Positions 13,705 to 41,580 of a stretch of 42,677 nt of DNA are shown one piece after another; the stretch's first letter is position 1; the number at the start of each line of letters is the position of its first letter. The notes beneath the pieces are model-generated. The model saw only the letters and a list, made by a program, of their open reading frames with translations. It did no database searches and was not told the DNA's origin. Made by a program: the position numbers and the translations under genes. The stretch is taken from positions 1 to 42,677 of the IMG/VR virus record IMGVR_UViG_3300003690_000022, one strand, 5' to 3'. The DNA is from a virus.

Positions 13705-14885
13705 CGATGACGACGGTTGGCTCTCTCTTCTCTGGTATTGGCGGATTCGACAGGGGGCTTGAGCTCGCCGGGTGGGAAGTCCAGTGGCAGGTTGAAAATG
13801 ATAAGTTCTGTAATCAGATACTTGAACGGCACTGGCCTGGAGTAACGCGATATGGAGACATCACCGCGGTCAACACCGACCAGCTCAGCCCAGTTGACCT
13901 TCTTTGCGGAGGATTCCCCTGCCAAGACCTCTCCGTGGCTGGACGCCGTGAGGGATTGGCTGGAGAGCGGAGCTCCCTGTTCTTTGAGTTCGCCCGAATC
14001 GCAGGCGCTCTTACTCCTCGTTGGCTACTTGTCGAGAATGTCCCAGGACTCTTTAGTTCGTCCGATGGGAGAGATTTTGGCATCGTCATCTCCACACTGG
14101 CCGAACTCGGGTACGGTCTGGCGTGGCGGGTGCTTGACTCTCAGTACTTCGGAGTGGCCCAGCGCCGCCGTCGTGTGTTCATTGTCGGACATCTTGGAAA
14201 GCCATGCCCACCCGAAATACTCTTTGAGTCCGAAAGCCTGCGCGGGAATTCTCCGCCGAGCCGCCAAGCGGGGACGCAGCCTGCCTACAGCCCTAAGGGC
14301 GGCTCTGGAGAGCGTGGCTGGCCCGTTGAGTTTGAAGCAGGACTTGCTTGGGGCGACGATGTCAGCCGCCCCCTGCTCAGCAAAGCCAATAGCAGCCACG
14401 ACGACTCGCTCGAAACCTACACCATCCACAACGGACAGGGAGACCCCAACTGGGACAGGAATCGAGCCTTCGCCCTTGACACTCAACAACCAAGTGCCGT
14501 TGCCTTTGCTCAGAACCAGCGAGGTGAACTCCGGACATCAGACATTAGCCCACAGCTCACCACTGGAGGCGGAAAGCCAGGAGAGGGATACCCCGCCGTT
14601 GCCTTCAATTGGCAATCCGGAGGGGATGTCCGCCTCGGAGTCTCAGAGGAGCGAACCGATGCCCTCCACGCAGGACAAGTACCCGCTGTCGGTCCGCCGC
14701 CTGACCCCGGCGGAGTGCGAGAGGCTACAGGGGTTCCCAGACGGGTGGACACTCCTGACAGCCCCCGATACCGCGCCCTCGGGAACGCCGTGACGGTCCC
14801 TGTGGCTGAGTGGATCGGGCGCCGGATCCTGTCAGCCCACCAGGAGGCCATCCGGTACGCGACGAATGGGATACCGGCGCCATGA
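13701..14885 (+). CDS. DNA (cytosine-5) methyltransferase, motif IX out of frame
   Basis: GTG 13701 (ATG 13707 also possible). Methylates cytosine C5 in DNA, probably to evade host restriction. Motif I is L-F-S-G-I-G-G-F-D near residue 9; motif IV, with the catalytic Cys, is G-G-F-P-C-Q-D-L-S; motif VI E-N-V-P-G; motif VIII Q-R-R-R-R-V-F-I-V. The target-recognition region includes S-P-Q-L-T-T-G-G-G-K-P-G-E-G-Y, and motif X is R-Y-R-A-L-G-N-A-V. The expected motif IX (R-R-L-T-P-x-E-C-E-R-L-Q-G-F-P-D) is missing here but is encoded in the +1 frame at 14692-14756. Either two compensating one-base indels flank it, or the reading frame is recoded. Activity is therefore uncertain. The stop overlaps ATG 14882. 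Confidence 0.9.
   Translation: MTMTTVGSLFSGIGGFDRGLELAGWEVQWQVENDKFCNQILERHWPGVTRYGDITAVNTDQLSPVDLLCGGFPCQDLSVAGRREGLAGERSSLFFEFARIAGALTPRWLLVENVPGLFSSSDGRDFGIVISTLAELGYGLAWRVLDSQYFGVAQRRRRVFIVGHLGKPCPPEILFESESLRGNSPPSRQAGTQPAYSPKGGSGERGWPVEFEAGLAWGDDVSRPLLSKANSSHDDSLETYTIHNGQGDPNWDRNRAFALDTQQPSAVAFAQNQRGELRTSDISPQLTTGGGKPGEGYPAVAFNWQSGGDVRLGVSEERTDALHAGQVPAVGPPPDPGGVREATGVPRRVDTPDSPRYRALGNAVTVPVAEWIGRRILSAHQEAIRYATNGIPAP
13852..14793 (+). other. Second open frame (+1) across the C5 methyltransferase gene
   Basis: A 313-codon frame, offset +1, runs from ATG 13852 to TGA 14793. It starts near Q-L-T-F-F-A-E-D-S-P-A-K-T-S-P-W, continues with L-T-L-S-T-S-E-W-P-S and A-C-A-G-I-L-R-R-A-A-K-R-G, and ends with the methyltransferase motif IX block (14692-14756). 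I recall phage proteins in the databases with these same strings, which would be either a true overprinted gene or a recurring misannotation of this frame. No ribosome site precedes 13852. Treat as an overlapping frame of unknown status. Confidence 0.45.
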
Positions 14886-14923
14886 CCCCCTACTGGGAGA
14901 ACGGAATCGTCCAGCTCCACCAC
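14882..14923 (+). pseudogene. Stranded N-terminus of an amino-methyltransferase gene
   Basis: ATG 14882 begins M-T-P-Y-W-E-N-G-I-V-Q-L-H-H, the usual start of phage N4/N6 methyltransferases. It then runs straight into the antisense LAGLIDADG gene at 14924. The frame stays open to TGA 15407-15409 but encodes only antisense sequence of the endonuclease. A second, equivalent start (D-N-G-F-V-S-L-Y-H-G-D-C) appears at about 15493, beyond the insertion. Confidence 0.7.
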
Positions 14924-15436
14924 TCAGCCGAGCTTGGGTTGCCAGGTGCGAGTATCGTTGAGAGCCTTAATCTGCTCAAACAGGTTTTGGCGGGCAGCCA
15001 CATCCTCTGTGGAATGAACGCGCTTTCTAAAGGTTCTCAGTTGCCCCCAACGATCCCGTTGCTGTACATCCGCAGTGCCCGTGCCGCCTATTTTCTTCAG
15101 CTCCCGCAATTGCAAGATGATCCAAGCCTGCTCCCACTTAATTCGCAGGTGCTGCATGAGCTCCTGAGCACAAGCGGCAGCTTTTCTATCCGTAATCTGC
15201 CAAACATGCATGTCGTTACGTCTTCCTGCCTGATGCTCAACTCGCACCGTGCCGCCAAAGGTCTTAGCCAAAAGGTCCGGGACAATAGATTTCACCTGTT
15301 TGAGGCCAATGCGTTCATGGAATATCGGCACTCGTGCGTCTCCCCTCACACGCATTGCATAGGTATCCCGCTTTATGGTGAAGTACCCATCGGAATCGAG
15401 ACACCCTGATAGATAGGCCATTAGTGTAGCATCCAT
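14924..15436 (-). CDS. LAGLIDADG homing endonuclease (170 aa)
   Basis: Minus-strand gene between two plus-strand methyltransferase parts, starting at ATG 15436. Residues 6-20 read Y-L-S-G-C-L-D-S-D-G-Y-F-T-I, a LAGLIDADG helix with its catalytic acid. One motif is visible, so it would act as a homodimer of the I-CreI type or as a degenerate enzyme. The rest is helical and basic (R-V-E-H-Q, W-Q-I-T-D-R-K). It fills the gap exactly between the stranded N-terminus (ending 14923) and the new start at 15456, so it is an inserted free-standing gene. Its target is probably the methyltransferase start region. Confidence 0.85.
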   Translation of the reverse strand: MDATLMAYLSGCLDSDGYFTIKRDTYAMRVRGDARVPIFHERIGLKQVKSIVPDLLAKTFGGTVRVEHQAGRRNDMHVWQITDRKAAACAQELMQHLRIKWEQAWIILQLRELKKIGGTGTADVQQRDRWGQLRTFRKRVHSTEDVAARQNLFEQIKALNDTRTWQPKLG

Positions 15437-15455
15437 AAGTGAAGAGTACACCTCA

Positions 15456-17132
15456 ATGGGGTATAAGTCAATAAAGGTGATAGGCCAAGAGGCGACGTTT
15501 GACAACGGTTTTGTCTCTCTGTATCACGGAGATTGCAGAGATATTTTAAGCCGGCTGCCCGCCAACGCGGTGCATTGTGTCGTTACGTCGCCTCCTTGAC
15601 CTTATTGGGGCCTGCGCGACTACGGCCTGGAGCCGACCGCCTGGGGCGGCGATGCGGACCATGCCCACGAATGGGGCAGCATCGGGCCGGGCCACCATCC
15701 CGGCCAGGTGCCTGACGGCAAGGCGGTCACGGACGAGAACGCCGTCGGGCAGAACGCAGGATCAGGCCGCAACTGCGCCTGCGGCGCCTGGCTCGGCACG
15801 CTGGGCCTGGAGCCGACGCCGGAGCTTTTCGTCGAGCACCTGGTCGGCATCTTCCGGGAACTGCGGCGAGTTCTGCGGAGCGATGGGACGCTCTGGCTGA
15901 ACATGGGGGATAGCTACGCCTCGGGAGAAATAGGAAGACACGATGCTCGGGTTGAGGGTAGTGACTACGGGGCGAAGCTGAATGGCCCACGGCAACACGC
16001 ACGGCTCGCAAGTGGCCTCAAGCCCAAGGACCTGCTCCTGATGCCCGCCCGCGTCGCCCTGGCGCTCCAGGCGGACGGCTGGTGGCTCCGGTCCGACATC
16101 ATCTGGTCGAAGCCGAATCCGATGCCTGAGTCAGTGACCGACCGCTGCACCACGGCGCACGAGCATGTATTCCTGCTGACGAAATCTGAGCGGTACTACT
16201 ACGATGCCGAGGCGATTCGGGAATCCGTCGCTCCCGCAACCTTGAGCGATAAGCGATCTGGCGAGATCATCCGCCCTGAGCGGGGGTTCCCAGGGTCCGC
16301 CAGTAACGGGGCAACGAAGCTCGGTGGCAACACGGGCCGCAACAAGCGCACCGTCTGGGAGATCGCCACCGAGCCCCTTACCGGTGTCGTCGTACATGGC
16401 AGCCATCGCACAGTGTCACCAGATTGCCCAGTGCATGGTTATCTGGAATCCCCTGCTGGCGTTCCTGTTGATGGTGAACAACCAGCCGCTTCTCCGTCTG
16501 CCCACAATCGACGCACCGATGATGGTCACGTTCAAGCGCCACCAGCCTCTGTGCCTTCCACACTCGCAGGTCAGGGCGCGAGTCTTTCCGATGCGTCCGC
16601 TGCCAGAGGCCATAGCAAGCAAACGAGCAGAACGGATTTTTTGTCAGAGCAAGGTGGCTCTTTCGACGGCGGAGAATCTTCCCGCACTGAGTACACGGAG
16701 TCTCCTCAGCATTCGCATACCGTTGCCAGTGGCAGCGCCGCGAACAGAACCGAGGTGGATTCCGCTTCAAGTGAGACGGAGACTGGTCACGCGGAACAAA
16801 CTGATCCCCGCAACGCTCACACACAAAAGACAGAGTGGACATACGATGACCCTCCCGATAATTGCTCTTGTCAGTATACCGGAAAGACTAGCAAGAGGAT
16901 AGATCATTTTGCAGGATTCCCCCAGGCCCTCGTCGAGCCGTGCGTGCTGGCCGGATGTCCAGAAGGCGGGATAGTCTGCGATCCCTTCGCCGGCAGCGGC
17001 ACCGTCGGCCTGGTCGCTCAGAAGCTCGGGCGCCGCGGCGTGCTGATCGACGCCAGCGCGGACTACCTGGCCCTGGCCCGCAAGCGAATCGAGGCGGTCC
17101 CGCTACCGATGCAACTGGAGGTCACGACTTGA
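15456..17132 (+). pseudogene. Amino-methyltransferase (N4-cytosine/N6-adenine), interrupted by TGA and carrying a nested antisense HNH gene
   Basis: From ATG 15456 the frame reads D-N-G-F-V-S-L-Y-H-G-D-C-R-D-I-L ... V-V-T-S-P-P, then TGA (15597-15599), then P-Y-W-G-L-R-D-Y-G in the same frame. The family motif is T-S-P-P-Y-W-G-L-R, so six bases including a stop have been inserted in catalytic motif IV. Downstream are L-W-L-N-M-G-D-S-Y, W-S-K-P-N-P-M-P, V-W-E-I-A-T-E-P and, at the C-terminus, motif I as D-P-F-A-G-S-G-T: the beta-class order. Between T-E-P and H-F-A-G-F-P lies a roughly 160-residue Ser/Thr/His/Asp-rich insert whose antisense strand is the HNH gene at 16378-16842. Without readthrough only a 47-residue peptide and a piece restarting at GTG 15708 would form, neither a complete enzyme. 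Confidence 0.85.
16378..16842 (-). CDS. HNH homing endonuclease nested antisense in the methyltransferase gene (154 aa)
   Basis: ATG 16842 to 16378 on the minus strand, wholly inside the plus-strand methyltransferase frame, which stays open opposite it. Two N-terminal zinc knuckles of the C-E-R-C-G ... F-C-S-R-R-C type (about residues 8-37 and 50-75) precede the HNH core: H-R-C-V-D-C-G, L-V-V-H-H-Q, and N-L-V-T-L-C-D-G-C-H-V-R-R-H. All expected metal ligands and the catalytic His pair are present, so it looks active. It most likely spreads by cutting methyltransferase genes that lack the insert. There is no intron or intein around it; the host frame simply reads through its antisense as a low-complexity linker. 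Confidence 0.9.
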   Translation of the reverse strand: MSTLSFVCERCGDQFVPRDQSPSHLKRNPPRFCSRRCHWQRYANAEETPCTQCGKILRRRKSHLALTKNPFCSFACYGLWQRTHRKDSRPDLRVWKAQRLVALERDHHRCVDCGQTEKRLVVHHQQERQQGIPDNHALGNLVTLCDGCHVRRHR

Positions 17133-18033: not shown

Positions 18034-18618
18034 ATGCCTCTCCATTCTACCACGCCTCGTCTGTGTTCACTCCCCGACTGCGACAAAGTCTCCCATGCTA
18101 AGACGCTGTGCCACAGGCACTATGAAAGAAAGCGCAGCTTTGGGCATACAGGCTCGAATAGGAAATCCCTCCATGAACGCTTCTGGGAAAAGGTCAACAA
18201 GAACGGCCCTCTTTGGCAAGGCACCCATTGCTGGGGCTGGACAGCGGCGCTAAACAACGGGTATGGCAGCCTCAAAGTGGCTGGTGTCATGGCCTATGCG
18301 CATCGTGTTGCTTACGAGGAATTAATTGGGCTAATCCCACCAGACTTGACAATTGACCACCTATGTCGGAATCGCCCGTGTGTAAACCCAGAACACCTAG
18401 AGGCTGTCAGCCCCGGGGAAAATATTCTCCGTGGGTTTGGGCCAACAGCGTTACACGCTCGGAAGACTCATTGTTGGCGTGGGCACCTGTTTGATCTTGT
18501 GAATACATATGTAAGACCTAACGGAGGTCGTGATTGCCGACAATGCATGACCTTCCGCAAATCGCGATTGGCGGCTCCGAAAGAAAGGCGGAATGCCCCC
18601 GGGCAGACAAAGGAGTGA
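18034..18618 (+). CDS. HNH homing endonuclease, free-standing (194 aa)
   Basis: ATG 18034. An N-terminal zinc knuckle (C-S-L-P-D-C-D ... C-H-R-H-Y) is followed by the HNH_3-type core: A-H-R-V-A-Y-E-E-L, then I-D-H-L-C-R-N-R-P-C-V-N-P-E-H-L-E-A-V-S-P-G-E-N, with the catalytic H-L ... N-P-x-H-L residues present. A C-terminal Cys/His cluster (H-C-W-R-G-H, C-R-Q-C) may be a DNA-contacting finger. It stands between complete genes, bounded by a strong hairpin upstream, and looks mobile and active. Confidence 0.9.
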   Translation: MPLHSTTPRLCSLPDCDKVSHAKTLCHRHYERKRSFGHTGSNRKSLHERFWEKVNKNGPLWQGTHCWGWTAALNNGYGSLKVAGVMAYAHRVAYEELIGLIPPDLTIDHLCRNRPCVNPEHLEAVSPGENILRGFGPTALHARKTHCWRGHLFDLVNTYVRPNGGRDCRQCMTFRKSRLAAPKERRNAPGQTKE

Positions 18619-39964: not shown

Positions 39965-40127
39965 GAAAGCGCTTCCAAATACGTGCCCAGATGGGGCTAC
40001 GAGGCCATGCGTCGAACGCCCAGCCGTAGTAGATGGCCTCGATATACGGCTTAGTCACCTTATGCCGCAATATCTGCACGGCGAATCCAGAGAGCTGAAA
40101 TCCCAATTCTTGATCAGCGGCCATCAT
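39951..40127 (-). CDS. Small protein between large terminase and portal (58 aa)
   Basis: ATGATG at 40127/40124, overlapping the terminase end by 14 bases and the portal start by 14. Ends in TAA at 39951. Sequence G-F-Q-L-S-G-F-A-V-Q-I-L-R-H-K is strikingly like the portal segment P-F-Q-L-S-G-F-A-I-T-Q-L-R-Q-G, followed by an aromatic, basic tail (I-Y-Y-G-W, W-A-R-I-W-K-R). Possibly a fragment duplicated from a portal gene that became a small partner protein. Function unknown. Confidence 0.65.
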   Translation of the reverse strand: MMAADQELGFQLSGFAVQILRHKVTKPYIEAIYYGWAFDAWPRSPIWARIWKRFHGGT

Positions 40128-41580
40128 GCAACCCCGGCGGTCCAGCTACGACAGCCCGACGGCCGTTCCGTCGGTGGACCTTGATTGTACTACTGCCCTG
40201 CCTCTGAGTATAGCCGAATCTGTCGATCAATCCGTAAATCACCGCCTTGATCGCGTCGTTATTGTTGTCCTTGGGGTTTTTGCCGATCACGTTCCCCTCA
40301 CGGTCGGTCCCCCACCGATAAGCCCTGAGCTGGCCGTCGTCGGGGTTCGGAGCAGCGCCGAATTCAGAGATCAGCCCCTCGCACCTGGGGTCGATGATGA
40401 ACTTCGGGCCGTGGGTGATGGGGTCCATCTTCAGCATCGTCTTCATGCGATCGGTGCCTGCCCCGATGGGGATCGGCTCCTTGCTGTGATTCATATAGAG
40501 CCGGGCTGGTTCGGCAACCCATATCTCCTGCAGGGGGCGCTGACCATGGTGCTGCGCAACGTAACGGTCCGCCACCCCACGGATATCCTTCTCTTTCCAC
40601 CAGTCGCGGTCCAGGCAGATTTCGATGATATCCTCGGTAGTCTTGCCTTTGACGTAGATTTCGTCGAAGATACGGACCTGGCCGCTGATAACGTTTGCGA
40701 TCTCGACGGCGTAGTAGCTGCCGGAGTAGCCCGGGTCTACCCAGATGTACACCCGCTCGCCTGGGACGCGCTCACACTGCCGAACGTGGACGTCAGCGCG
40801 GAATTCAGGGAAAACGAGCCCCTTGGGAGGGACGGGGATGCCCTCGATGCGCTCGCTGACGAACTGGTCCGAGGAATTAGCTATGATCTCGACTATTTTC
40901 GGGTCGTTGCGCCCGCCGGGGAAGACAGTGCTGTTCGCATACGTCGGGAGCCGGAAACTCTTCCGATTGTTAGCGCCGCTGGCCCATTGCGGCGCCAAAG
41001 AGGGGAACCAACCGACGCTTTCCTCCATCGTGCCGATAAAAAGCACCCAGCCGTCCTTCTCAAGTACCCGCTCCTGGCACCTCTCGAGAACTACCACGTC
41101 CTGCTGGCCTGCTTCGCAGACGATTATCCCGTGAGGAGGGTCCTGGGACATCTTCGTAATATCGCTAGAGCTTTTCGTTTCTATCCTGAGGCGTGGGTGG
41201 CGGTCCTTCGGCAGTTTGAGTTCGATATGACCAGGATCGACTCTTTTGGTCCAGTCCAAGTCAGGCTTTTTGAACCCAAGCAACTGCAGGTCGTCGTTGA
41301 TGTAGAAGAATTCTCGCCGAGTCTCGCTGTAGGACTTCCCGATCAGCCAGTACAGGAACGGATCACCGACCCCATCCCCGTCTTCTGGGTGTTTCTCCTG
41401 GTCCGCCAGCCAGTTCTTCATCCACTTCGCCTTTGCGACCATAGACTTACCGCCACGTCCGCCACCGGTAACGAGGATAAACCGGTGTGGAGCGTCTAAG
41501 ATTGCCTGCTGGTACGTCGAGTTAGGCGCAAAGCCTACTTTGTCGAAGAGGATGGAGATATTGGTATCAACGGCAAGCAT
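40114..41580 (-). CDS. Terminase large subunit (488 aa)
   Basis: ATG 41580 overlaps the previous stop (TAATG). ATPase: Walker A G-G-G-R-G-G-K-S near residues 39-46, a Walker B-like strand G-I-I-V-C-E-A-G-Q (Cys in place of the usual Asp before the catalytic Glu) and coupling motif L-F-I-G-T-M-E. Nuclease: I-W-V-D-P-G-Y-S-G-S, G-V-A-D-R-Y, and a C-terminal N-N-D-A-I-K-A-V-I-Y supply the RNaseH-fold acids. It cuts concatemers and drives DNA into the prohead through the portal encoded next to it. Confidence 0.92.
   Translation of the reverse strand: MLAVDTNISILFDKVGFAPNSTYQQAILDAPHRFILVTGGGRGGKSMVAKAKWMKNWLADQEKHPEDGDGVGDPFLYWLIGKSYSETRREFFYINDDLQLLGFKKPDLDWTKRVDPGHIELKLPKDRHPRLRIETKSSSDITKMSQDPPHGIIVCEAGQQDVVVLERCQERVLEKDGWVLFIGTMEESVGWFPSLAPQWASGANNRKSFRLPTYANSTVFPGGRNDPKIVEIIANSSDQFVSERIEGIPVPPKGLVFPEFRADVHVRQCERVPGERVYIWVDPGYSGSYYAVEIANVISGQVRIFDEIYVKGKTTEDIIEICLDRDWWKEKDIRGVADRYVAQHHGQRPLQEIWVAEPARLYMNHSKEPIPIGAGTDRMKTMLKMDPITHGPKFIIDPRCEGLISEFGAAPNPDDGQLRAYRWGTDREGNVIGKNPKDNNNDAIKAVIYGLIDRFGYTQRQGSSTIKVHRRNGRRAVVAGPPGLHDGR

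Follow-up and report, generated by a model that had tools for sequence, protein, structure and literature searches.

The 42,677-base virus record IMGVR_UViG_3300003690_000022 (the window, meaning the whole stretch of DNA analysed) carries an HNH endonuclease gene nested antisense within a DNA methyltransferase reading frame. The nested gene (16378–16842, minus strand) starts with ATG and encodes a protein of 154 amino acids, which is matched by Pfam HNH (PF01844; 27.5 bits against a cut-off of 21.4, E = 3.5e-6) and by the HNH family PHROG 1271 (phrog_1271; 7.2e-22). The HNH catalytic domain, taken as the Pfam stretch, comprises residues 110–154 (16381–16515, minus strand). It is preceded by two cysteine knuckle pairs, at residues 8–37 (16732–16821, minus strand) and residues 50–76 (16615–16695, minus strand). 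In a 19-row alignment, C8, C11, C33, C37, C50, C53, C72, and C113 are invariant and C76 is nearly so, and the core residues H123, H124, N140, C145, H149, and H153 are likewise invariant. L087 lacks the cysteine at position 110, and L104 that at position 148. The catalytic His/Asn/His residues and the zinc cysteines are thus retained in a protein that would be expected to cleave DNA. Its AlphaFold model has a mean predicted local distance difference test (pLDDT) score of 89.1 and a predicted template modelling (pTM) score of 0.51. A first, sequence-only reading of the window had described a complete minus-strand HNH protein with two zinc knuckles and catalytic histidines, and the domain matches and invariant residues bear this out.

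The methyltransferase frame remains open through the HNH gene. This part of the frame (15708–17132, plus strand; 474 amino acids) matches the N6/N4 DNA methyltransferase family N6_N4_Mtase (PF01555; 2.6e-38) over residues 37–458, a match that spans the insert. The middle of the frame, an antisense shadow of the HNH gene, is not matched by Pfam in its own right. Over the HNH interval, both the HNH and methyltransferase frames are open; of the other four frames, three contain 7, 7, and 3 stops, and one further antisense frame is likewise stop-free. The insert, or linker (16376–16915, plus strand), occupies about 540 nucleotides where an empty relative, L005, has 24. By blastn, in which the left match ends at 16375 and the right match starts at 16916, the net insert is 516 nucleotides, or 172 codons. 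One flank that the sequence-only reading had assigned to the methyltransferase linker, D-C-P-V-H-G, is really the antisense shadow of HNH core codons (HALGNLVTLC). Therefore, any other methyltransferase that shows such a flank bears the trace of an antisense HNH gene. Some uncultivated phages probably carry a selfish gene, likely to encode a DNA-cutting enzyme, antisense within a DNA methyltransferase gene that can still be read straight through.

The window methyltransferase itself is broken upstream of the insert. Its N-terminal region (FDNGFVSLYHGDC...TSPP; 15478–15707, plus strand), for which we read a start at 15478, contains an in-frame TGA (15597–15599) that falls within catalytic motif IV (TSPP*PYWG, the asterisk marking the stop), so that the window copy lacks an intact motif IV in the same open frame. 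The probable true N-terminus (MTPYWENGIVQLHH, from 14882) is separated from the rest by a second antisense open reading frame (14924–15505, minus strand). The uninterrupted frame first claimed for this gene is therefore correct across the HNH gene but fails further upstream, and any claim about a class of such genes rests on the relatives.

Relatives with the same arrangement are present in uncultivated viral contigs. As a single query, the window HNH protein found no relatives in viral contigs, and an alignment query was needed. Loci were retrieved via the HNH protein only, with the host frame ignored in selection. The first alignment search returned 24 loci, 20 of which (18 non-redundant) have the HNH gene antisense in one open methyltransferase frame. 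The remainder comprise two genes on the same strand in another methyltransferase frame (L103 and L105) and two loci without a host frame (L106 and L107). A wider HNH alignment gave at least 80 loci, including at least 12 antisense in a methyltransferase (8 new and non-redundant) and at least 13 on the same strand within a longer frame with intein and/or terminase domains. The other 55 mostly lack a spanning frame; four have one (L122, L155, L157, and L171), and that of L122, which is also one of the control loci used below, encodes 311 amino acids without a Pfam match. These counts bear on a prediction of the sequence-only reading, as HNH-selected loci did prove to be antisense in an open methyltransferase frame (20 of the 24 plus 12 of at least 80). 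With the window, there are at least 27 non-redundant antisense cases. For these counts, L084 was merged with its near copy L085, and L096 with L095, whose HNH it shares. L117 and L119 were treated as copies of L113 and L118 from agreeing coordinates and scores rather than from alignment. Five pairs are the same contigs (L111 and L092, L115 and L101, L003 and L097, L006 and L089, L013 and L104). A single case, L181, deviates, having a TDPPY methyltransferase type, a different site, and a different phase.

The search from the methyltransferase side gives the same answer. At three loci fetched by methyltransferase sequence (L003, L006, and L013), the corresponding position is taken by a CP(V/T)H linker. 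Translated antisense, as the sequence-only reading had proposed, each of these linkers holds a complete HNH (Pfam 3.9e-11, 2.7e-10, and 4.7e-4, respectively, the last just under the cut-off). Another long linker, in L007, was inspected by eye in six frames and supported no hidden gene. In one scan of bacterial and archaeal genomes, 8 HNH relatives were recovered, and neither our own profile nor Pfam identified a methyltransferase frame spanning any of them. The class first proposed as widespread is thus so among uncultivated viral contigs, but not in that scan of cellular genomes.

Most occupied methyltransferases retain their catalytic motifs. Of the 27 occupied hosts, 24 have an intact motif IV within the same open frame (TSPP[YF] in 23 and TDPPY in L181), and 25 match the motif I pattern, of which L089 and L092 have variants. 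Among 79 loci from the methyltransferase search, 76 match the motif check and 3 do not. Motif IV is broken in the window, L088, and L094 (3 of 27), each time by a TGA within the TSPP-Y-W codons; these breaks are perhaps scars of another nuclease.

Both frames are held open by selection. The same antisense frame is stop-free over the HNH gene in the window and 20 loci, with a constant phase, and seven further clade members are equally open (L108, L109, L110, L112, L113, L118, and L126, the last over 60 codons only). Overall, the antisense host frame is open in 26 of 26 non-redundant loci of the HNH clade, window included. By comparison, it is open in none of 18 relatives without a recognised host, which have 2–11 stops each; these controls are the host-less loci with an HNH match long enough for the tree, not all host-less loci. 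When synonymous HNH codons were permuted in 19 loci, a mean of 1.1–3.9 stops appeared in the methyltransferase frame, and the summed log10 probability of no stop was -30 (-43 with weighted codons). In the converse test, shuffling methyltransferase synonyms closed the HNH frame (summed log10 P of -49). Each locus in these tests was bounded at 1/2000, and the sums overstate the evidence because related loci are not independent. The openness of the methyltransferase frame is not imposed by the HNH protein.

Selection acts differently on the two proteins. In the 40 most similar of 253 pairs, HNH codons differ 2075, 1993, and 3828 times at positions 1, 2, and 3, respectively, and mean identity is 0.60 for the HNH versus 0.30 for the linker in the host frame. 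The phase places HNH codon position 3 at methyltransferase position 2. The excess of third-position changes, together with the higher identity of the HNH, therefore indicates selection on the amino acids of the HNH, while in the host frame it is mainly stops that are selected against. The codon-position analysis suggested by the sequence-only reading thus finds selection on the HNH protein, and codon permutation adds that the plus frame is selected to stay open.

Antisense HNH genes occupy a fixed site in their hosts. In 26 of 27 hosts, the exception being L181, the insert lies between codons for W-x-I-x-T-x-P-[YFL] and H-[FY]-A-x-[FYM]-P, or close variants. Both flanking stretches are contiguous in all 37 empty methyltransferases, which are the rows passing a motif filter among 80 loci from the methyltransferase search. 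The net insert relative to empty relatives is a multiple of three, at 516 nucleotides for the window against L005 and 522 for L085 against L012. The latter two come from the same metagenome; their flanks are 84% and 89% identical, and they differ by about 522 nucleotides at the site. We also observed that the insert in the methyltransferase of L112 (2435–4348) is flanked by a near repeat of host codons (DYWEIPTAPY and DYWDIPTVGY), as if the target had been duplicated.

The history of the HNH gene is distinct from that of its host. On a methyltransferase tree of 25 occupied and 37 empty rows (without L112, L181, L001, L002, L007, and L015), the occupied/empty label needs 15 changes, at least 4 of which are forced by starred branches. 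In the HNH tree, from which L177 was excluded, 26 of the 27 antisense genes fall in one clade. Identities of HNH and methyltransferase are uncorrelated across 24 loci (Mantel r 0.09, P 0.23), and L109 and L113, for example, share 68% of the methyltransferase core and 40% of the HNH. The patchy distribution and host/insert discordance by which homing genes are recognised are therefore both present. Taken with the fixed site, this is the pattern predicted for a site-specific mobile gene.

Candidate expression signals precede the HNH gene. In the window, a sequence resembling a ribosome-binding site, GGGAGGG (16850–16856, minus strand), lies 7 nucleotides before the HNH ATG with a duplex energy of -10.8, and a putative -10 box, TATACT (16873–16878, minus strand), has 1 mismatch to TATAAT. 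The latter lies further up, over codons that the host frame translates as C-S-C-Q-Y. In 15 of 24 loci, the 60 nucleotides upstream of the HNH start contain a TATAAT-like box with no more than one mismatch, a count in which the L118 start is misplaced; 500 shuffles averaged 6.6 such loci and never exceeded 12. In L110, the hexamers TTGACA and TATAAT both occur without a mismatch upstream of the HNH gene. Duplex energies for the ribosome-binding site have a median of -5.9 versus -4.05 in shuffled sequence, with 19 of 24 at or below -4, but this comparison is biased, as the best of several starts was taken for the loci but not for the shuffles, and is given little weight.

The host protein is predicted to carry the insert as a loop. 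In a model of the occupied methyltransferase of L108, the insert (about residues 261–390) has a pLDDT of 27–44, while blocks around conserved motifs (e.g., 1–30, 51–80, 131–150, 411–430, and 511–540) reach 80–97.

We consider the insert very likely to be a mobile gene for an HNH homing endonuclease, which resides antisense in the methyltransferase gene and is carried by the host protein as a disordered loop, with no need for an intron or intein. The HNH protein would be made from its own antisense promoter and ribosome-binding site. On meeting an empty methyltransferase allele in a co-infecting phage or a prophage, it would cut the insertion site, and repair templated by the occupied allele would copy the HNH gene into the cut allele. 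The host protein would be translated straight through, because the reverse complement of the HNH codons has no stop, and the insert would form an unstructured loop of about 170 residues. As splicing is unnecessary, the element is neither an intron nor an intein. An in-frame antisense insertion of this kind was already proposed by the sequence-only reading; the open phase and the lack of both an intein domain and an Rfam family support it, and homing is what the pattern would imply.

Other explanations account for part of these observations. Mobile endonucleases are usually carried by splicing elements, and inteins are present in the related terminase group, so the insert could instead be an intein or self-splicing intron with an antisense endonuclease. 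We regard this as very improbable, since the host frame runs through the insert without a stop or a change of phase, a condition that an intron does not require. A Pfam search allowing E-values up to 1 found no intein or Hint domain in the window protein, and no Rfam family was found in the window region and six loci, although very divergent introns might escape. On these Pfam and Rfam results, an intein or intron was ruled out. That the HNH frame is a chance antisense shadow of a GC-rich (guanine- and cytosine-rich) methyltransferase linker has a negligible probability. Long antisense frames are indeed common in the window, and 6 of the 18 controls have one extra open frame. This explanation is refuted by the frame counts, by the Pfam HNH matches of 3.9e-11 and 2.7e-10 at the same place in relatives, by loci of 44–45% GC that show the HNH too, and by the closing of the HNH frame when methyltransferase synonyms are shuffled.

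Two further explanations accept the HNH gene as real. It might be a partner of the methyltransferase, in a nested restriction-modification or superinfection-exclusion pair that cuts competitor DNA lacking the methyl mark. HNH enzymes are known from restriction systems, and the HNH gene lies within a methyltransferase in 26 of 26 clade members. We nevertheless judge this improbable: the HNH clade does not track the relationships of its hosts, host relatives without the HNH fit a site-specific invader better than a co-evolved pair, and HNH relatives of the same family occur in terminase inteins and elsewhere. A somewhat less unlikely possibility is that a formerly mobile HNH gene is now passively inherited, its nuclease dying while the host frame is kept. 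The broken window methyltransferase and the cysteines missing in L087 and L104 are consistent with this, and for some copies it is compatible with a mobile homing gene. As a general account it is opposed by the invariance of H123, H124, N140, and most cysteines in 19 rows and by the excess of third-position changes.

Several results weigh against a mobile antisense homing gene, in addition to the non-independence of loci in the codon tests. The window methyltransferase is probably inactive, because of the in-frame TGA and the second insertion upstream, and its frame is probably no longer under selection; the open host frame in the window may be a recent relic. Extra open frames also arise singly by chance: 5 of the 18 controls have another open antisense frame, and 1 has an open sense frame. 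On the methyltransferase tree, 6 of 500 label shuffles are as low as 15 changes; the label is thus somewhat clustered, and there must be long stretches of vertical inheritance. The clade of antisense HNH genes has a Shimodaira–Hasegawa-like approximate likelihood ratio test (SH-aLRT) support of 87, which is under the starred level. Foldseek with the HNH model found no match below 1e-3, with the HNH of phage GVE2 at E 0.12 and a probability of 0.98. A stricter consensus scan of window positions 16300–17100 found no full promoter, and the L108 model is low outside the conserved blocks and poor overall (mean pLDDT 61.7). Cleavage, homing, and expression of the HNH are all deduced from sequence patterns.

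Hidden HNH genes were previously described on the same strand as their hosts. In mycobacteriophage methylases, the ShiLan domain was shown to be an HNH encoded on the same strand in a different frame, which has no intron or intein and spreads between phages (Arsenault, Gosselin and Gogarten, Genes 2025, PMC11855218, here and below according to the available part of the text). Its HNH frame has a GTG 18 bp in and a TAA near the end, with no ribosome-binding site found, and the same source gives a second hidden HNH, Pacc40 gp60. The same mycobacteriophage methylase was the subject of an earlier paper (PMC9957025), and an out-of-frame HNH in a phage methyltransferase is also described for Applejack gp54/gp55 (PMC12613952), each as far as its available text goes. 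The portions available for Pacc40 and Applejack mention no case on the other strand. That of PMC11855218 uses none of the terms “antisense,” “opposite strand,” “reverse strand,” “complementary strand,” or “opposite direction.”

The antisense genes share with ShiLan, as far as it is described in that text, a zinc-knuckle HNH nested in a phage DNA methyltransferase, a host frame without stops through it, a patchy distribution, and a predicted loop. They differ in strand and site, lying antisense beside the H-F-A of a TSPPY-type enzyme. Furthermore, they have putative start signals of their own and a fixed codon phase, and they sit in another part of the HNH tree, where the row for phage Mantra is a long branch. 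Mantra is of the same-strand kind, with a TDPPY methyltransferase type and, by eye, an HNH beside VVARKP; same-strand nesting was also observed in phages SG4, Briton15, and Optimus. Inteins with an endonuclease domain are likewise mobile genes in frame in a conserved gene, but here there is no splicing domain and the endonuclease is not part of the host polypeptide. Long genes lying antisense in another are known from E. coli O157:H7 (PMC9927249); in the available text these are novel frames over an annotated gene, whereas here a known enzyme family is inserted and the host frame is continuous.

We found no antisense version of a hidden HNH gene in the literature, among the matches listed. Among annotated phages, none of BUCT618, Javan565, Mantra, SG4, Briton15, PK5.1, and Optimus has an antisense case; the annotated collection holds the same-strand kind, in BUCT618 and mycobacteriophages. 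Nested homing genes of this sort were called unrecognised in the sequence-only reading. This is no longer so for out-of-frame HNH genes in general, which were already published for the same strand without intron or intein (PMC11855218), but it holds for the antisense form, of which no report was found among the matches listed. The antisense arrangement is thus a new variant of the mode of hiding published in 2025 for same-strand genes.

Other HNH genes are nested in the sense strand of their hosts. At least 13 same-strand, out-of-frame HNH genes lie within intein-bearing frames, mostly of terminase large subunits (L128, L129, L131, L134, L142, L149, L150, L152, L169, L175, L176, L177, and L187). 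Pfam identifies Intein_splicing in 12 of these 13, with L131 under its cut-off, and a terminase domain in 11. Relative to the HNH, the host consistently occupies the +2 frame, and in all 13 it has no stop over the HNH match (summed log10 P of -31, each locus bounded at 1/1000). In Escherichia phage BUCT618 (L001, 2872–3474), an annotated methyltransferase holds, in its +1 frame, an HNH_2 gene that has no annotation of its own; its near relatives in the HNH tree include L103 and L105, and a megablast of the gene against E. coli genomes gave no match. At L015 (3560–4045), an HNH_5 gene (1.2e-12) lies on the same strand of a methyltransferase in the +2 frame, at a different site before R-N-L-R-N-V-W. 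The differences among the 13 same-strand loci, BUCT618 (+1), L015 (+2), and L181 (another antisense phase) suggest several separate origins of frame-transparent nesting.

Further endonuclease-like genes surround the nested HNH in the window. The second antisense open reading frame at the 5' end of the same methyltransferase (14924–15505, minus strand) encodes an endonuclease-like protein of 193 amino acids (phrog_5046, 2e-11). It is bordered by MTPYWENGIVQLHH and DNGFVSLYHGDC, and its flanks NGIVQLHH and NGFVSLYHG resemble a partial duplication. A LAGLIDADG-like motif is visible by eye, with none by Pfam, and a plus frame (14810–15409) is open over most of it. No relatives of this frame were found in viral contigs, and three distant ones were found in phage records. 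With another HNH endonuclease gene at 18034–18618 (phrog_826, 3.4e-44), there are three endonuclease-like genes within 4 kb. Elsewhere in the window, two long antisense frames, 40114–41580 (minus strand) and 40126–41499 (plus strand), overlap almost completely. The minus frame matches the terminase large subunit (phrog_2, 6.3e-13); the plus frame has no PHROG match and is probably a chance shadow.

Frame transparency could be a third general route for mobile genes, beside introns and inteins, a reading that we hold to be reasonably probable. One antisense HNH clade would be specialised for it, with its own promoter and ribosome-binding site and codons constrained for the host, while other HNH lineages would use the sense strand of methyltransferases and terminase inteins, with four codon phases overall. 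If this is true, hidden genes may cast many of the low-complexity linkers in annotated phage enzymes as their shadows. The antisense HNH genes indicate that a conserved gene can take in a mobile one and stay unbroken although no splicing device is present, even when the two lie on opposite strands. They also provide many natural antisense overlaps with a known enzyme family on each strand, in which selection, measurable in both frames, maintains two unrelated proteins on the same piece of DNA. One type of low-complexity linker in phage methyltransferases is thereby explained, and hidden nucleases are predicted that gene finders, which avoid long overlaps, will overlook.

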